Source of the DNA: Verrucomicrobium spinosum DSM 4136 = JCM 18804
Lineage (GTDB): Bacteria > Verrucomicrobiota > Verrucomicrobiia > Verrucomicrobiales > Verrucomicrobiaceae
Direction: 5' to 3'
Length of the DNA: 64,000 bases
Assembly (NCBI RefSeq): GCF_000172155.1
Contig: NZ_ABIZ01000001.1
Span: 1,984,001-2,048,000, forward strand
Part shown: in pieces, positions 19,746-29,014 of the stretch
Numbering within the stretch: position 1 is the first letter of the stretch
How the letters are laid out: every line of letters begins with the position of its first letter
Translations under genes and position numbers: made by a program
Notes under the pieces: generated by a model
Told to the model about the DNA's origin: nothing
The model's database searches: none
Seen by the model: the letters and a program-made list of their open reading frames with translations, nothing else

Positions 19746-19771
19746 TGAATTCTCGCGCCCAGTCGAAGCTC

Positions 19772-20575
19772 GTAGCTGCACTTGTGAAAGTGCGGAAGGG
19801 TGGCGCGGCCTTGCGGGGTGAGCGGTGTGTGGTGGGTGGCGAGCGGCCTGATCGCGTTCTTACGAACCCAGCCACGACTGAGCGGCTTCCCGCAGGTAGC
19901 TCGTAGCTGCACTTGTGAAAGTGCGGAAAGGTGGCGCGGCCTTGCGGGGTGAGCTGTGTGTGGTGGGTGGCGAGCGGCCTGATCGCGTTCTCACGAACGC
20001 AACCACGACTGAGGAAGTCCCTGCGCCAAGACGAAGCTCGTAGCTGCACTTGTAAAAGTGCGGAAGGTGGCGCGACCTTGCGGGGTGAGCTGTGTGTGGT
20101 GGGTGGCGAGCGGCCTGATCGCGTTCTCACGAACGCAACCACGACTGAGAAAGTTCCCGCGCACCGTCGAAGCTCGTAGCTGCACTTGTGAAAGTGCGGA
20201 AGGTGGCGCGGCCTTGCGGCGTGAGCGGTGTGTGGTGGGTGGCGAGCGGCCTGATCGCGTTCTCACGAACGCAACCACGACTGAGAAAGTTCCCGCGCAC
20301 CGTCGAAGCTCGTAGCTGCACTTGTGAAAGTGCGGAAGGTGGCGCGGCCTTGCGGGGTGAGCTGTGTGTGTTGGGTGGCGCGCGGCCTGATCGCGTTCTC
20401 ACGAACGCAACCACGACTGAGGAAGTTCCCGCGCACCCTCGAAGCTCGTAGCTGCACTTGTGAAAGTGCGGAAAGGTGGCGCGACCTTGCGGGGTGAGCT
20501 GTGTGTGTTGGGTGGCGCGCGGCCTGATCGCGTTCTCACGAACGCAACCACGACTGAGAAGCTTCCCGCAGGGGT
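19772..20575. repeat. tandem array of six ~136-bp hairpin units
   Basis: The block gtagctgcac recurs at 19772, 19903, 20040, 20176, 20312 and 20448 (spacings 131, 137, 136, 136, 136). Each unit contains hairpins gcactt-gtga-aagtgc and gcgttc-tcac-gaacgc. The sequence is unrelated to the 142-bp array at 5981. Long minus-strand frames across it are repeat artefacts. The array lies between the convergent dgt and methyltransferase genes. Confidence 0.9.
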
Positions 20576-23580: not shown

Positions 23581-24858
23581 ATGTCCCAGACCGTCACCCG
23601 ACTAAGAGATCTGACCAAGCAGCAAAAACGTTCCGGTCTGGCCGCGTGGCTGGGCTGGTTGTTCGACGGACTGGACATGCATCTCTACACGCTGGTGGCG
23701 ACGCCCTTTGTGGCGGCCCTCCTGCTGACGGACACTGGAGATCCGCAGGTGAAGGTGAAGTCCGCCATCATTCAGGGGCTGTTCCTGGTGGGGTGGGCGC
23801 TCGGTGGCGCGTTCTTTGGCCGGGTGGGGGATCTCCTGGGGCGTCGGAAGGCGCTGGTGCTGACCATCCTTACCTATGCGTGCTTTACCGGCCTGTCCGC
23901 CATTGCCCAGACGTGGTGGCAGCTTGGGATCTTCCGCTTCCTGGCCGCCCTGGGCATCGGTGGGGAGTGGGCCGTGGGAGCTTCTCTGTTGGTTGAGACC
24001 TGGCCGAAGAATTGGCGCCCGTGGATCGCGGCGGTGCTCCAGAGTGCCGTGAACTGCGGCATCATGCTGGCGTGCCTGGCCGGATTCATCCTCAAGGAGG
24101 ATGAGAGCAACCGCCTGATCTTCCTGGTGGGCATTCTGCCCGCGCTGATCACCCTCTGGATCCGCAAGGCGGTGCCGGAGACAGAGGAATGGGAGGCGGC
24201 TCAGAACAAGGTGAAGCCTCCGGGGGTGATGGAGCTCTTCAGCCCCCAAGTACGAGGAGTCACCTGGCGGGTGCTGCTGATCTGCGCCGTGTCGCTCACG
24301 GCTCACTGGGCCTTCATGTTCTGGCAGCAGGCGCATGTCCGGGCCCTGCCGGAGTTCGCCAATGTAACGGCCGCTGAAAAGAACAGTGTGGCCGTGACAT
24401 CGCTCTTCTGGGTGATGGTGGGGTCGGTGATCGGGAATTTCGTGGCCGGCGGTCTGGCCAAGATCATGGGCTATCGCAAGGCGATCGTGCTCATGCTGGC
24501 CGCTTACGCTGGCTCGATGTGGTTGTGCTTTCATACGACCTGGAGCTATCAGGCCACGCTGTGGCTCTTCGCTCTCATCGGCCTCTGCCAAGGTGTGTTT
24601 GGCCTCTTCACCATGTGCCTGCCTCCGCTCTTCCCCACGCTGCTCCGCACCACCGGGGCAGGGTTTTGCTACAACTTCGGCCGGATCGTGGCTGCCGCGG
24701 GGACGGTCTATTTTGGCCTCGCCGCCACGGGCAAGGTGGATGACTACCGCATCGCCCTGCTGAATGCCGGCTACCTCTTCATTCCCGCCGCGATCGTCGC
24801 CTTCCTGCTGCCGCAGGAGAAGGATCAGGATGACCAGGTGAATCAGCCTGCGGACTAA
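23581..24858 (+). CDS. MFS transporter (metabolite:H+ symporter type)
   Basis: 425 residues from ATG at 23581, with 12 predicted membrane helices. The start (WLGWLFDGLDMHLYTL) carries the DGxD-like charge motif in helix 1 typical of aromatic-acid/sialate:H+ symporters. MFS motif A is GRVGDLLGRRKALVL between helices 2 and 3. ALGIGGEWAVGASLLVETWP in helix 4 also matches this subfamily. The substrate is probably an organic acid or sugar acid, imported across the inner membrane; the neighbouring Gfo/Idh oxidoreductase makes a sugar-type compound plausible, which is inference. A heptamer array begins 7 bp after the stop. Confidence 0.88.
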   Translation: MSQTVTRLRDLTKQQKRSGLAAWLGWLFDGLDMHLYTLVATPFVAALLLTDTGDPQVKVKSAIIQGLFLVGWALGGAFFGRVGDLLGRRKALVLTILTYACFTGLSAIAQTWWQLGIFRFLAALGIGGEWAVGASLLVETWPKNWRPWIAAVLQSAVNCGIMLACLAGFILKEDESNRLIFLVGILPALITLWIRKAVPETEEWEAAQNKVKPPGVMELFSPQVRGVTWRVLLICAVSLTAHWAFMFWQQAHVRALPEFANVTAAEKNSVAVTSLFWVMVGSVIGNFVAGGLAKIMGYRKAIVLMLAAYAGSMWLCFHTTWSYQATLWLFALIGLCQGVFGLFTMCLPPLFPTLLRTTGAGFCYNFGRIVAAAGTVYFGLAATGKVDDYRIALLNAGYLFIPAAIVAFLLPQEKDQDDQVNQPAD

Positions 24859-24865
24859 GAGGGGG

Positions 24866-24956
24866 ATTATGAATTATGAATTATGAATTATGAATTATGA
24901 ATTATGAATTATGAATTATGAATTAGGAATTAGGAATTAGGAATTAGGAATTAGGA
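24866..24956. repeat. heptanucleotide array, 13 copies (attatga x8, attagga x5)
   Basis: Eight copies of attatga are followed without a break by five copies of attagga. A short inverted piece (caattcctaattcctaattt, about 25000-25019) lies 43 bp downstream and can pair with the second half. The array begins 7 bp after the MFS stop codon. Confidence 0.92.
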
Positions 24957-25078
24957 ATGGGGCCGCGTTCTGCTGGCGAAATACTCGCGTCAGGAGAATT
25001 CAATTCCTAATTCCTAATTTCCCTCCGCTGATGGAAATGGGCGGCATGGAGCGTTGAGTCCATCTTCACGCTCCCTCC

Positions 25079-26470
25079 ATGAACTCCCCGACCTCCCTTC
25101 AGAATACGAATACTCGGCGCGACTTCCTCAAGAACGCCACCCGGGCCACTGCCGGACTTTCCGTGCTCTCCGGCATCAGCATTCCCTATGTGCATGCCCA
25201 GGGGGATGACACGGTGCGGGCTGCGCTGATCGGGTGCGGCGGTCGTGGCGCAGGCGCAGCCAGCAACTCCATGTCGGTGGGGAACGCCTCCATCCGCCTG
25301 GTCGCCATGGCGGATGTGCAGAAGAACCGGCTGGATGCGGCGCATGAGGCGCTCTCCAAGAAACACCCGGACAAGATGTCCGTTTCGGAGGACGCGAAGT
25401 TCATCGGGTTCGATGCCTACAAGCAGGCGGTGGACATGCTCAAGCCTGGAGATGTGGCCATCTTCGCCACGCCCCCCGCCTTCCGCTGGGTGCACTTCAA
25501 GTACGCGATTGAAAAGGGCGTGAACATCTTCATGGAAAAGCCGCTGGCGGTGGATGGCCCCACGGCCAAGCGCATGCTGGAGCTGAATGAAGAGGCAAAG
25601 AAAAAGGGGCTGAAAGTGGCCGTGGGCCTCATGTGCCGCCATTGCAAGATCCGCAAGGAGCTCTACAACCGTGTGCAGGACGGCGCTATTGGGGATCTCA
25701 TTCTGGCACGTGCCTACCGCATGCAGGCCCCCGTGGCCTCCTGCTTCTCCAAGCGCCGCCCGGAGGAGACCCCGGAACTCATCTGGCAGATCCAGCGTTT
25801 CCACTCCTTCCTGTGGGCCAGCGGTGGCTCATACAGTGATTTCTTCATCCACAACATCGATGAAGCGTGCTGGATGAAGAACGACTGGCCCGTCGAGGCG
25901 CAGGCCAGCGGCGGGCGCACGGATCGAGGAGAGTACGTGGACCAGAACTTCGACCACTACTCAGTGGAGTACACCTGGAAGGACGGCTCCAAGTTCTTCT
26001 TTGAAGGGCGCAACATCACCGGCTGCCGCAACGAGTTCTCCACCACCATTCACGGCACCAAGGGCAGCGCCATTGTCTCCACGGCCGGGCATCTGCCGGC
26101 CCGCAGTGCCATCTTCAAAGGGCAGCGCCGCAGCGCAGAAGAGACCGTATGGAAGGGCGAATCCCCGGAGCCCAATCCCTATCAACTGGAGTGGGACGAC
26201 TTCCTTCATGCCATCCGCCACAACGAGACCTACAATGAGATGGAGCGTGGTGTGCAGGCCAGTCTGGTGACCTCCATGGGACGCATGGCGGCGCATACCG
26301 GCCAGATCATCACCTATGATCAAATGCTGAACTGCCCGCATGAGTTCGCGCCGGATGTGGACAAGCTCACGCTGGATTCACCCGCACCGATCCGCGAGGA
26401 CGCCAATGGTCGCTATCCCGTGCCGCTCCCCGGCGTGAACCGGGATCGCGAGTTCGCCGTTCCCGCCTAG
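25079..26470 (+). CDS. Tat-exported Gfo/Idh/MocA-family oxidoreductase
   Basis: 463 residues. A twin-arginine signal (TRRDFLKNATRATAGLSVLSG) precedes the NAD(P)-binding fold, ALIGCGGRGAGAA at about residues 49-61, with FMEKPLAVD (the conserved EKP) near residue 153. The C-terminal alpha/beta domain has YSDFFIHNIDEACWM, containing His/Asp residues at the usual active-site place. Family knowledge: these enzymes oxidise or reduce sugars and inositols, and the Tat-exported forms carry folded cofactor to the periplasm. It precedes a regulator gene by 40 bp, probably in one transcript. Confidence 0.9.
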   Translation: MNSPTSLQNTNTRRDFLKNATRATAGLSVLSGISIPYVHAQGDDTVRAALIGCGGRGAGAASNSMSVGNASIRLVAMADVQKNRLDAAHEALSKKHPDKMSVSEDAKFIGFDAYKQAVDMLKPGDVAIFATPPAFRWVHFKYAIEKGVNIFMEKPLAVDGPTAKRMLELNEEAKKKGLKVAVGLMCRHCKIRKELYNRVQDGAIGDLILARAYRMQAPVASCFSKRRPEETPELIWQIQRFHSFLWASGGSYSDFFIHNIDEACWMKNDWPVEAQASGGRTDRGEYVDQNFDHYSVEYTWKDGSKFFFEGRNITGCRNEFSTTIHGTKGSAIVSTAGHLPARSAIFKGQRRSAEETVWKGESPEPNPYQLEWDDFLHAIRHNETYNEMERGVQASLVTSMGRMAAHTGQIITYDQMLNCPHEFAPDVDKLTLDSPAPIREDANGRYPVPLPGVNRDREFAVPA

Positions 26471-26510
26471 GGCTCAAGGCGGTTGTTGGAAATCACCCAC
26501 ATCTCTTCCC

Positions 26511-27329
26511 ATGGAGTCGGCGGCGATGCCCGGCAGACCTGCGACGGCTTCTGCCAGCTCGTCGTTTGATGACCTGGGCGCCTTGCATGAGCTCTGCCGG
26601 CTGCGCTCCACGCTGGAGGGCTTTGCCGCGGTACGTCTCTGTCAGCATCCCCGTCGGCAGGAGGTGCTGGATGACTTTTCCAGGCGCCTGGAGTCGATGC
26701 ATGCCTGGGCCCGGCAGGGCCGCTTGCTGGAGTTCCGCCAGGAGGATGGGGAGCTCCATCGTCGCCTCGTCGCCTCTTGTGACTCAGAGGCGCTCATGCA
26801 TTGCTGGGAGCATGTGAACGCCAGGCTGGAGGCCTGGATCCAGCATGTGCAGGAGGTGTACTGGCCCAGCCTGATGACGCTCTATCGCGAGCATGAGTTT
26901 CTCATCCAGGCCTGGGCATCGGATGAGCCCTGGGTGGCAGAAGCCGCCACGCATCAGCACCTGGAGGCGGGTTGGTTCCGTGTCGCCGCAGCACGAGGTG
27001 AATCCTCACCCGTGATGGATCCCGTGGAGCGCGCCACATCCTTTCTCTGCACCCACTATGCGAGTGCGGTGGAGGTGGGCTGGCTCGCACAGAATGTCAG
27101 CTTTGTGAGTGCCAGTCATCTCACCCGGTGCTTCCGGCAGAAGCTCGGCGTCTCCCCCTACGCATTCCTCAGACAGGTCCGCATGGAGCGGGCCGCCCAA
27201 CTCTTGAAAACCAGTGCGGATGCCGTGGCGGTGATTGCCCTGAAGACGGGGTACAAGAACGTGTCCCACTTCGTGCGGGACTTCCGGGAGAAATACACCA
27301 TGACGCCCAAGCGCTACCGGGATGGGTGA
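26511..27329 (+). CDS. Hybrid regulator: FCD ligand domain fused to AraC-type HTH
   Basis: 272 residues. Residues about 25-160 look like the FCD domain of FadR-type GntR regulators: RLRSTLEGFAAVRL, then Asp79 and His83 in EDGELHRRLVASCDSE, His128 in REHEFLIQAW and His150 in THQHLEAGW, matching the Asp-x3-His ... His ... His metal/ligand site. Residues about 172-270 are a double AraC helix-turn-helix (CFRQKLGVSPYAFLRQVRMERAAQLL, then the second HTH GYKNVSHFVRDFREKYTMTPKRYR). The usual N-terminal GntR winged helix is absent. The gene follows the Gfo/Idh gene by 40 bp and may control it in response to a carboxylate or sugar acid. Confidence 0.85.
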   Translation: MESAAMPGRPATASASSSFDDLGALHELCRLRSTLEGFAAVRLCQHPRRQEVLDDFSRRLESMHAWARQGRLLEFRQEDGELHRRLVASCDSEALMHCWEHVNARLEAWIQHVQEVYWPSLMTLYREHEFLIQAWASDEPWVAEAATHQHLEAGWFRVAAARGESSPVMDPVERATSFLCTHYASAVEVGWLAQNVSFVSASHLTRCFRQKLGVSPYAFLRQVRMERAAQLLKTSADAVAVIALKTGYKNVSHFVRDFREKYTMTPKRYRDG

Positions 27330-27709
27330 GTGAGGGGGAGTTGGCTCCTATTGCTCAGCACGTGGCGACGGGAGTAGTCCGACGGTCCCCGTCGGTTGGT
27401 GAGCGGGCGTGACCTCTGCCTACTCGGCAACGCCGCGAAAAGCATTCTCCGACGCCAAGGGCGTCATACAAAATAGACGCCCAGGGTCAGGCGAGGCGCG
27501 AGCCGCCACCCTGGGTCGGTGGAAAGATCAATTGGAAATCCGAAGTGAGTTCTACAGACTGTCCCCATCACCTGATACGACCGCCTTGCATGCAATGAAC
27601 ACCTCGGGGGCGCTATGACGGTTTGTAGAACTCCCTTGGAGTTCCTGCTCTATCCCATCAATACCCGGGGTGGCGACCGCTTCGCGGCCTGACCCCGGGC
27701 TGTTTTGTA
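27330..27709. other. intergenic region between convergent AraC-type and PEP-CTERM genes
   Basis: No gene is supported. It is filled mostly by the two arms of a large imperfect inverted repeat (27451-27724) and shorter hairpins such as ggcaacgcc. Small open frames here follow the repeat and have no recognisable product. Confidence 0.6.
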
Positions 27710-27724
27710 TCACGCCGTTGGCGT
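27451..27724. repeat. large imperfect inverted repeat (arms 27451-27516 and 27663-27724)
   Basis: The left arm (gacgccaagggcgtcatac ... ccaccctgggt) is the reverse complement, with about a dozen mismatches, of the right arm (acccggggtggcgacc ... atcacgccgttggcgt). Each arm also contains smaller palindromes (gacgcc-aag-ggcgtc). The right arm enters the end of the PEP-CTERM gene and supplies its last codons. Confidence 0.8.
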
Positions 27725-28588
27725 AGAGTTTCCACGGCCGGATGGAGGCCCTCGCCGACGCCTCATGACCACCCCTGCGAGTCCGCAGACCAGCAACCAT
27801 GCACGCCCCGGCTCCGGCGTCTGGGCCAGACTTGCCCAGTCCGTCGCGATCCGCACTTCGTCAAAACTCGCCATCGTCGTGGTCTGACTGCTGGTGGCGA
27901 AGCCGGAACCCATCCGGATGCCATTCAATCCGTTGGCGAAGTAGTCCCCGGTTGAGGTGAAATAACCTGACGTGGGCTCTTCGCCAGACAGGTCCGGATT
28001 CACGAACAACGTGGCGCGGTCATTGAGGCCGCTCTGGTCAAACTCCACCTTCAGCACCAGTTGGGTCATCCCGGATACCGGTGGGCGGGAGGCGGTGCTG
28101 GAGTTGAGATTCAGCGCCCCAAACGCTCCCCACACGGAGCCCGCACCTGATTGTCCGAGATAGGCCTTCTCTGAGCCGCCGTCCATGAGCGAGAAGGCGA
28201 TGAACCGCGAGCCATCATTGTCATTGTCCACCAGGAAACTGAAGTAAACGGTACCGGTGTTGATCCGGTCAAACGAACGCGCCCCATAGATCCCATTTCC
28301 TGCCGTGGCATTGGACGGATGATTGGGAGTGGAGGTGATGCCGCTGGTGGACACCAGTACCGTGCCATTGCCACCACTGGTTGTCTGCTGAATGCTCCAG
28401 GCCGAGGAGAACCCGGCTCCGCCATTCAGCGTGGCCAGACTGGAGCCGACCGTGTAGTCAAAGGAGTCATAGGCCACCAGGATGGCCGAGGCCGACGACG
28501 CCATGGCGTGCAACATCAATCCGGTGAGGACCGTCCACCCTGCCTTGGGGAAAAGAGCGGGGAGGTGAGAGATGAATGAGAAGCGCAT
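27710..28588 (-). CDS. PEP-CTERM sorting domain protein
   Basis: 292 residues. Signal peptide at the start (cleavage near ASSASA), a beta-rich body of concanavalin-like type (SFDYTVGSSLATLNGGAGFSSAW, a common opening for Verrucomicrobia/Planctomycete secreted proteins), and the C-terminal sorting tail TPEPGRAWLLVCGLAGVVMRRRR: a PEP motif, a hydrophobic helix and a basic cluster. Family knowledge: exosortase recognises this tail and handles export to the envelope or biofilm matrix. The final residues after RRRR (GPPSGRGNSTPTA) are encoded by an inverted-repeat arm and look like an accidental extension. The gene stands alone. Confidence 0.85.
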   Translation of the reverse strand: MRFSFISHLPALFPKAGWTVLTGLMLHAMASSASAILVAYDSFDYTVGSSLATLNGGAGFSSAWSIQQTTSGGNGTVLVSTSGITSTPNHPSNATAGNGIYGARSFDRINTGTVYFSFLVDNDNDGSRFIAFSLMDGGSEKAYLGQSGAGSVWGAFGALNLNSSTASRPPVSGMTQLVLKVEFDQSGLNDRATLFVNPDLSGEEPTSGYFTSTGDYFANGLNGIRMGSGFATSSQTTTMASFDEVRIATDWASLAQTPEPGRAWLLVCGLAGVVMRRRRGPPSGRGNSTPTA

Positions 28589-29014
28589 GGCCCATTCCTG
28601 AGGGACACGCTTGGGTCTGCCAAGGCTGGAAGCTGCCGGGAAGAGGGAATGGCCGTATCCGCGTAGCGCGATGATCGGAATAGAACATTTTCACGTGGGC
28701 GAAGCGCTCCGCCAGGGAGTGTTGCGGAGCGATTCGAGCAAGGCGGATATCGCTCAAATGCAATTCAGGAACCGCGCCGGGGTTGGAGTACCGCGTTTAC
28801 GCGGCTCAGGAGGATTGGAACTGTCGCCATCGTGGCAAGAACTTGTCTGGTGGCACTATCTCGTGGAGCCACCACGAGCAGGCAGGCTTTTGCAAAATGG
28901 CAAGTTTGAGGCGAGGTCTGCGATTGATGTCGCAGACACCCCCGCTCTTGCAAGTTTGGTGACTTCATGGTAACAACTTGCCTCCGTCAAAAACTCTTCC
29001 ATCCCAAAGCCCCC
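28589..29014. other. intergenic region with several small hairpins
   Basis: No convincing gene. Inverted repeats include ctcgtgg-agcca-ccacgag (near 28860) and gtctgcga-ttgatg-tcgcagac (near 28916). It separates two divergent genes and should hold both promoters, which I could not locate. Confidence 0.45.

Follow-up and report, generated by a model that had tools for sequence, protein, structure and literature searches.

An FCD domain joined to an AraC-type DNA-binding domain in a predicted one-component regulator of Verrucomicrobium spinosum

Regulators of the FadR subfamily, such as NanR, DgoR and TM0439 (and, by fold, DhdR and LldR), carry an N-terminal GntR winged helix along with an FCD domain. 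The accessible part of PMC8012715 gives Asp172, His176, His222 and His244 as the Zn2+ ligands of NanR, together with Neu5Ac, and an extract of PMC7674646 reports that galactonate binding by DgoR requires a divalent metal. The operator of the GntR/FadR subfamily is described as a TKGT/ACMA palindrome in the portion of PMC4494728 available to us. Members of the AraC/XylS family (AraC, XylR, Rns, ToxT, YesN) have a C-terminal DNA-binding domain of about 100 residues with two helix-turn-helix (HTH) motifs, and an N-terminal effector domain that is a cupin or another domain, the cupin not being universal.

The regulator described here is encoded in a 64-kb window (the whole stretch of Verrucomicrobium DNA that was analysed). 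It has the FCD fold of the FadR subfamily, and organic-acid sensing is likely to be common to both, but it lacks the GntR winged helix and its FCD domain is N-terminal. Since this winged helix is the defining feature of the GntR family, the regulator is, as judged from its domains, not a GntR member; by its DNA-binding domain it belongs to the AraC/XylS family. The two-HTH C-terminal domain and the N-terminal effector layout are those of that family, and half-sites about two helical turns apart were seen in five of eight predicted sites, but the effector is an all-helical FCD. AraR, which combines a GntR winged helix with a LacI/GalR ligand domain (same portion of PMC4494728), provides a precedent, as it is also a natural chimera of DNA-binding and ligand domains from two families. 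AraR, however, joins a different pair of families and keeps the GntR half that is missing here.

The gene was called as an open reading frame at 26511..27329 on the plus strand, with an ATG start and 272 residues. Pfam placed FCD (PF07729) on residues 27-152 (26589..26966, plus strand), with an E of 5.7e-13 and 49.8 bits against a cut-off of 24.3. The C-terminal AraC DNA-binding domain occupies about residues 178-272 (27042..27326, plus strand), where HTH_AraC matched two stretches (the best being 179-220, E 3.1e-15) and HTH_18 matched residues 198-271 (E 6.9e-23), so that the two AraC HTHs noted in the first-pass annotation are indeed present. Four Pfam families matched at E<=1, and neither the GntR family (PF00392 winged helix) nor a cupin family was among them; the absence of the winged helix, claimed earlier, therefore holds at this threshold. 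We also searched the rest of the Verrucomicrobium genome, which holds nine FCD matches with the regulator included. The other eight all match PF00392 above cut-off, and the regulator's FCD scores lowest of the nine (51.6 bits in this search vs 69-92).

An AlphaFold2 model built with 12 aligned sequences had a mean pLDDT of 89.4 and a pTM of 0.83. In this model, residues 17-168 superpose by VIA on the FCD domains of McbR (Z 16.0), DhdR (Z 15.2), TM0439 (Z 14.8), DgoR (Z 13.8) and NanR (Z 12.4), while residues 168-272 superpose on the DNA-binding domains of Rns, ToxT and YesN (Z about 11). Structure prediction thus gives the N-terminal part an FCD fold, not that of a cupin or another domain, and an N-terminal cupin was ruled out by this comparison. 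When a profile of the FCD half was compared with solved structures, the galactonate sensor DgoR was the best match (E 2.2e-7), followed lower down by TM0439 (E 2e-5) and NanR (E 3e-4). Pfam, fold and the conserved fusion agree that FCD and C-terminal AraC HTHs lie in one protein, and the swap of domains between two regulator families is real and conserved across the aligned relatives. A chance, assembly or frameshift artefact was ruled out, since the whole architecture is conserved in 24 relatives.

Asp79, His83, His128 and His150, which had been picked out as metal/ligand residues, lie exactly at those positions. They were present without exception in the 20 aligned proteins of a first set and in the 25 of an enlarged set (both counts include the window protein itself, and the larger set omits the frameshifted L012 and L013 and the L111 copy with its internal TGA). 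Arg32, Trp99, Trp155 and Arg157 were likewise invariant in the 25 proteins. The other 24 are 27-93% identical to the window protein. The D/H/H/H pattern is that of NanR at near-identical spacing, 4/45/22 in the regulator vs 4/46/22 in NanR (from the residues given in the accessible part of PMC8012715). From residue conservation, spacing and fold, we infer that the FCD domain would bind a divalent metal and a carboxylate ligand. By analogy with NanR and DgoR, the ligand would most likely be a sugar acid or a 2-keto-3-deoxy acid.

The FCD-AraC family is sparsely distributed yet conserved and, going by record titles, most of its members are Verrucomicrobiota. Of 96 genomes examined as relatives, the one with the window among them, 12 held a full-length relative, as did at least 5 of 387 genomes sampled across the phylum (six candidates scored per genome), and at least 4 of 294 genomes of a second phylum, Planctomycetota by record title (that of G470; nine candidates per genome). 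A pattern scan across a collection of 84,980 species, able to recover only close relatives, yielded 13 loci, of which 11 are intact. Most of the records named there are Verrucomicrobiota; one carries a Planctomycetota title and one a Klebsiella title. The latter, a bin titled Klebsiella pneumoniae among those of L012 and L013, is probably contaminated; an identical frameshifted FCD-AraC stretch is found in these two metagenome bins. Another copy (L111 at locus L114, genome G541) is broken by one TGA and has a close intact relative in G520. Spread by plasmids was considered and rejected, as tblastn matches occurred in 994 records and none covered 80% of the query.

In a tree of FCD domains, a branch with support 100/99 (long branches flagged) separated all 25 FCD halves from the eight GntR-FCDs of the Verrucomicrobium genome, which were the only comparison FCDs. 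This topology fits an FCD half that arose once. For the DNA-binding half, the tree showed two groups, A (with the window protein) and B, whose relation it does not resolve, so it gives no support to a single origin of the whole fusion. One AraC-only row lies inside each group (L071 in A, L042 in B). The latter (genome G056) lacks a readable FCD frame adjoining the HTH and is perhaps a decayed FCD-AraC copy. We found no description of an FCD-AraC protein, or of an FCD effector in the AraC family, in the open-access articles searched; the architecture may well be listed in some protein database.

We propose, with a probability of roughly 0.66, that the protein is a one-component regulator in which an FCD sensor of metal and organic acid replaces the AraC effector domain, acting at a predicted site in response to a sugar-acid-type ligand. 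Both domains, the D/H/H/H site, the conserved fusion and a DNA motif common to the carrier loci were all computed directly. As the FCD domain occupies the position of the AraC effector domain, it would be expected to dimerise and to bind a divalent metal and a sugar acid. Ligand binding may then alter how the AraC domain engages the predicted site, and in the FCD dimer two AraC domains would face half-sites spaced by about two helical turns. In other lineages, the predicted site stands before sialidase-like, SBF or kinase genes adjoining the regulator, and in Verrucomicrobium before a gene for a PEP-CTERM surface-type protein.

The regulator would activate the downstream promoter, although this is a guess as to sign. 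Activation is the common mode in the AraC family, and regulators with an N-terminal effector and a C-terminal double HTH, the layout seen here, are mostly activators, which speaks against a repressor that is released by its ligand. We consider a repressor of this kind rather unlikely, even though the FCD domain supplies the sensing and both DgoR and NanR are called repressors (accessible parts of PMC7674646 and PMC8012715). An FCD sensor leaves the sign unsettled, since CitO is an FCD protein that activates (an extract of PMC4746285).

A candidate operator could be located. Intergenic stretches were read at ten group-A loci outside the genus. Seven of these loci (L006, L007, L010, L074, L075, L094 and L099) showed an element consisting of AAATGTTCT, an A/T-rich stretch, and CGATCAT or similar; none was seen at L008, L011 and L098. 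A position weight matrix (PWM) was built from these seven loci. In leave-one-out scoring, the omitted site ranked first in its locus in six of the seven cases and second in one, ranks that overstate the motif because the seven anchors were chosen visually and include two close relatives (L006 and L075). The window sequence was not used in building the matrix and is therefore an independent test. Over the 64 kb, the stretch 28658..28691 on the minus strand scored 35.8, and the next best 9.3. This predicted operator, with its 20-bp core AAATGTTCTATTCCGATCAT at 28671-28690, lies upstream of a convergent gene at 27710..28588 (minus strand) for a PEP-CTERM-type protein (by eye) of 292 residues, which had no Pfam match at E<=0.01. 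From the site and the co-occurrence described below, we consider this gene the predicted target. The first-pass annotation had pointed to an operator upstream of 25079; there was no motif match there, and the only strong match in the window is the one at 28658-28691. A search of 26400-28800 for sigma-70 promoters gave no match.

We further searched whole genomes for the 20-bp pattern. At up to three mismatches, it occurred once each in the window's genome (G000) and in two congeneric genomes (G001 and G003), always with 0 mismatches, and three times in G008 (2, 3 and 3 mismatches), where the first copy is beside the regulator. G332, a group-A carrier whose variant site was used in the matrix, had no match at this threshold, and the reversed pattern matched none of these five genomes. 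At up to two mismatches, the pattern was present in 4 of 96 genomes (the same G000, G001, G003 and G008), all of them group-A FCD-AraC carriers, and its reversed control in none of the 96; the fifth group-A carrier among them (G029), whose variant site was also used in the matrix, had no match. In G000, G001 and G003, the site core begins exactly 102 nt before the start codon of the PEP-CTERM-type gene. In G003, a distance of at least about 130 kb separates this gene from the regulator, which lies on a different contig, and retention of the site by so distant a gene points to regulation in trans. Homologues of the PEP-CTERM-type protein (E<=1e-12) occurred in 4 of the 96 genomes, the same four that have the site, and the one in G008 is embedded in the SBF, APH, HpcH and BNR genes that adjoin the regulator. 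This co-occurrence is confined to one small clade, and shared ancestry accounts for part of it.

In five of the eight sites, the half-site recurs 22 bp on and matches at 5 or 6 of its 7 positions, and an offset of 22 gave the best mean among offsets of 8-45 on either side (4.38 vs 3.0 for the next). The window's own direct repeat at this spacing is weak (2/7 positions). Group-B proteins have different HTH residues, and a different motif, GATTTSGCMTA, lies beside the regulator in eight of nine group-B loci (a descriptive count, the pattern having been drawn from the same nine), the only match of L095 being elsewhere. That distinct HTH residues go with a distinct motif supports the predicted pairing of protein with motif. 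Neither AAATGTTCTATTYCGATCAT nor GATTTSGCMTA, whose assignment to these proteins we infer, contains by eye the TKGT/ACMA palindrome as it appears in the available portion of PMC4494728.

The regulator is preceded by a gene for an MFS transporter at 23581..24858 (plus strand; assigned by Pfam and NCBIfam, searched from 23587) and one for a Gfo/Idh/MocA oxidoreductase at 25079..26470 (plus strand; Pfam), which has an RRDFLK N-terminus (Tat-like, by eye) and ends 40 bp upstream of the regulator gene. The order MFS, Gfo/Idh/MocA, regulator is the same in the near-complete genomes G001 and G003. This kept adjacency, and the fact that both genes are codirectional and just upstream, would favour a regulator that controls only these two neighbours, with the site at 28671-28690 belonging to some other regulator. 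We find this unlikely, as no PWM site precedes the regulator, MFS or Gfo/Idh genes in the window, only other FCD-AraC loci were used to build the motif, and the four of 96 genomes with the site are all carriers.

We also compared the neighbourhoods of 25 loci, including those of G001 and G003 and excluding the window (L012 and L013 were dropped from an initial 27, and L114 was kept). The fetched flanks were unequal in length, and G471 supplied two loci (L010 and L096). At least one of BNR_2, SBF, a pyruvate-type aldolase (HpcH/DHDPS) or APH kinase was present near the regulator in 22 of the 25, the exceptions being the two congeneric genomes and L098. A BNR_2-type (sialidase-like) relative was present within the fetched stretch in 20 loci, a pyruvate-type aldolase in 14 (5 HpcH, 9 DHDPS family), an SBF transporter in 13 and an APH-type kinase in 7; L076, L081, L094 and L095 supplied the neighbour queries and so match themselves in these counts. 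Family names come from Pfam and NCBIfam searches of representatives (16 neighbours were scanned, of which 13 match BNR_2). BNR_2 alone is a weak marker, since such proteins are common in these genomes (nine matches in G000). Group-A loci alone showed APH and HpcH, DHDPS was confined to group-B or deeper loci, and three loci (L076, L077 and L081) had dihydroxyacetone kinase subunits. Such a neighbourhood could form a locus for freeing and importing a 2-keto-3-deoxy sugar acid and splitting it into pyruvate and an aldehyde, and it suggests that the regulator controls the use of such acids.

Sialic acid as the specific ligand was rejected as unsupported: the aldolases, SBF and MFS proteins scored below NCBIfam cut-offs (the best match of the window's MFS protein, a sialate:H+ symport family, was far below), and the BNR protein matched solved sialidases only at E 8e-4. 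That the FCD half is a dimerisation scaffold in a constitutive AraC-type regulator that senses no ligand would agree with its FCD score being the weakest of the genome's nine, but it is improbable, a mere scaffold being unexpected when all 25 proteins, with identity down to 27%, keep the four metal residues and R32, and the metabolic neighbourhoods suggest an inducible sugar-acid system.

In the genus Verrucomicrobium, the BNR_2-SBF-APH-HpcH gene run sits elsewhere in G000, G001 and G003, with no adjoining FCD-AraC gene. In G000, it is on contig C1 at about 5.474-5.480 Mb (L128:9442-15264), 3.46 Mb from the regulator. Control of this run in trans was rejected for the window's genome, where the run has no group-A motif site. 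A GTGTTAGCATAACAC-type palindrome was observed upstream of the run in all three genomes (with one base changed in G003), and in G201 a LacI gene and a BNR gene flank a comparable palindrome; the LacI of G201 is 69% identical to the LacI about 7.5 kb from the BNR gene of the window's genome. A LacI-type regulator has probably taken over the run in this genus. The ligand suggested by other lineages may thus not hold here, since the catabolic run lies 3.46 Mb away, has no site and is probably served by LacI. The APH protein was matched at E<=1e-40 in 18 of 377 genomes, four of which carry FCD-AraC. A GntR-FCD regulator at the same run was looked for and rejected: six of the genome's own GntR-FCD queries were unmatched there in 8 of the 14 non-carrier genomes (51-57% identity), and FCD-AraC was also unmatched at the run in those eight. 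G002, a fourth Verrucomicrobium genome that is 76% complete, had no full-length relative of the regulator.

A broader reading, which we hold tentatively and with rather more doubt than confidence, is that an FCD sensor of single origin joined to an AraC domain makes up an undescribed family that would control ulosonic-acid scavenging through half-sites 22 bp apart. The family would range over Verrucomicrobiota and, by record title, Planctomycetota, and in Verrucomicrobium it would have been rewired to a surface protein, with a LacI-type regulator on the catabolic genes. The architecture suggests that FCD sensing is portable, as the metal/acid pocket found behind a GntR winged helix is also found before an AraC double HTH, and it offers a natural experiment in which one ligand domain may drive two DNA-binding folds. 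To our knowledge, few regulators have been characterised in this phylum, and with a site and a target predicted, this one can be tested directly in Verrucomicrobium. An FCD-AraC gene may also mark sugar-acid loci in metagenomes.

Two repeats were also observed in the window. A 136-bp tandem repeat in about six copies (92% matches) occupies 19750-20569, and a repeated peptide appears in the translations of chance open reading frames that cross it. At 24866-24958, in the stretch that separates the MFS gene from the Gfo/Idh gene, there are thirteen copies of the 7-bp repeat ATTATGA, which could possibly vary promoter spacing.
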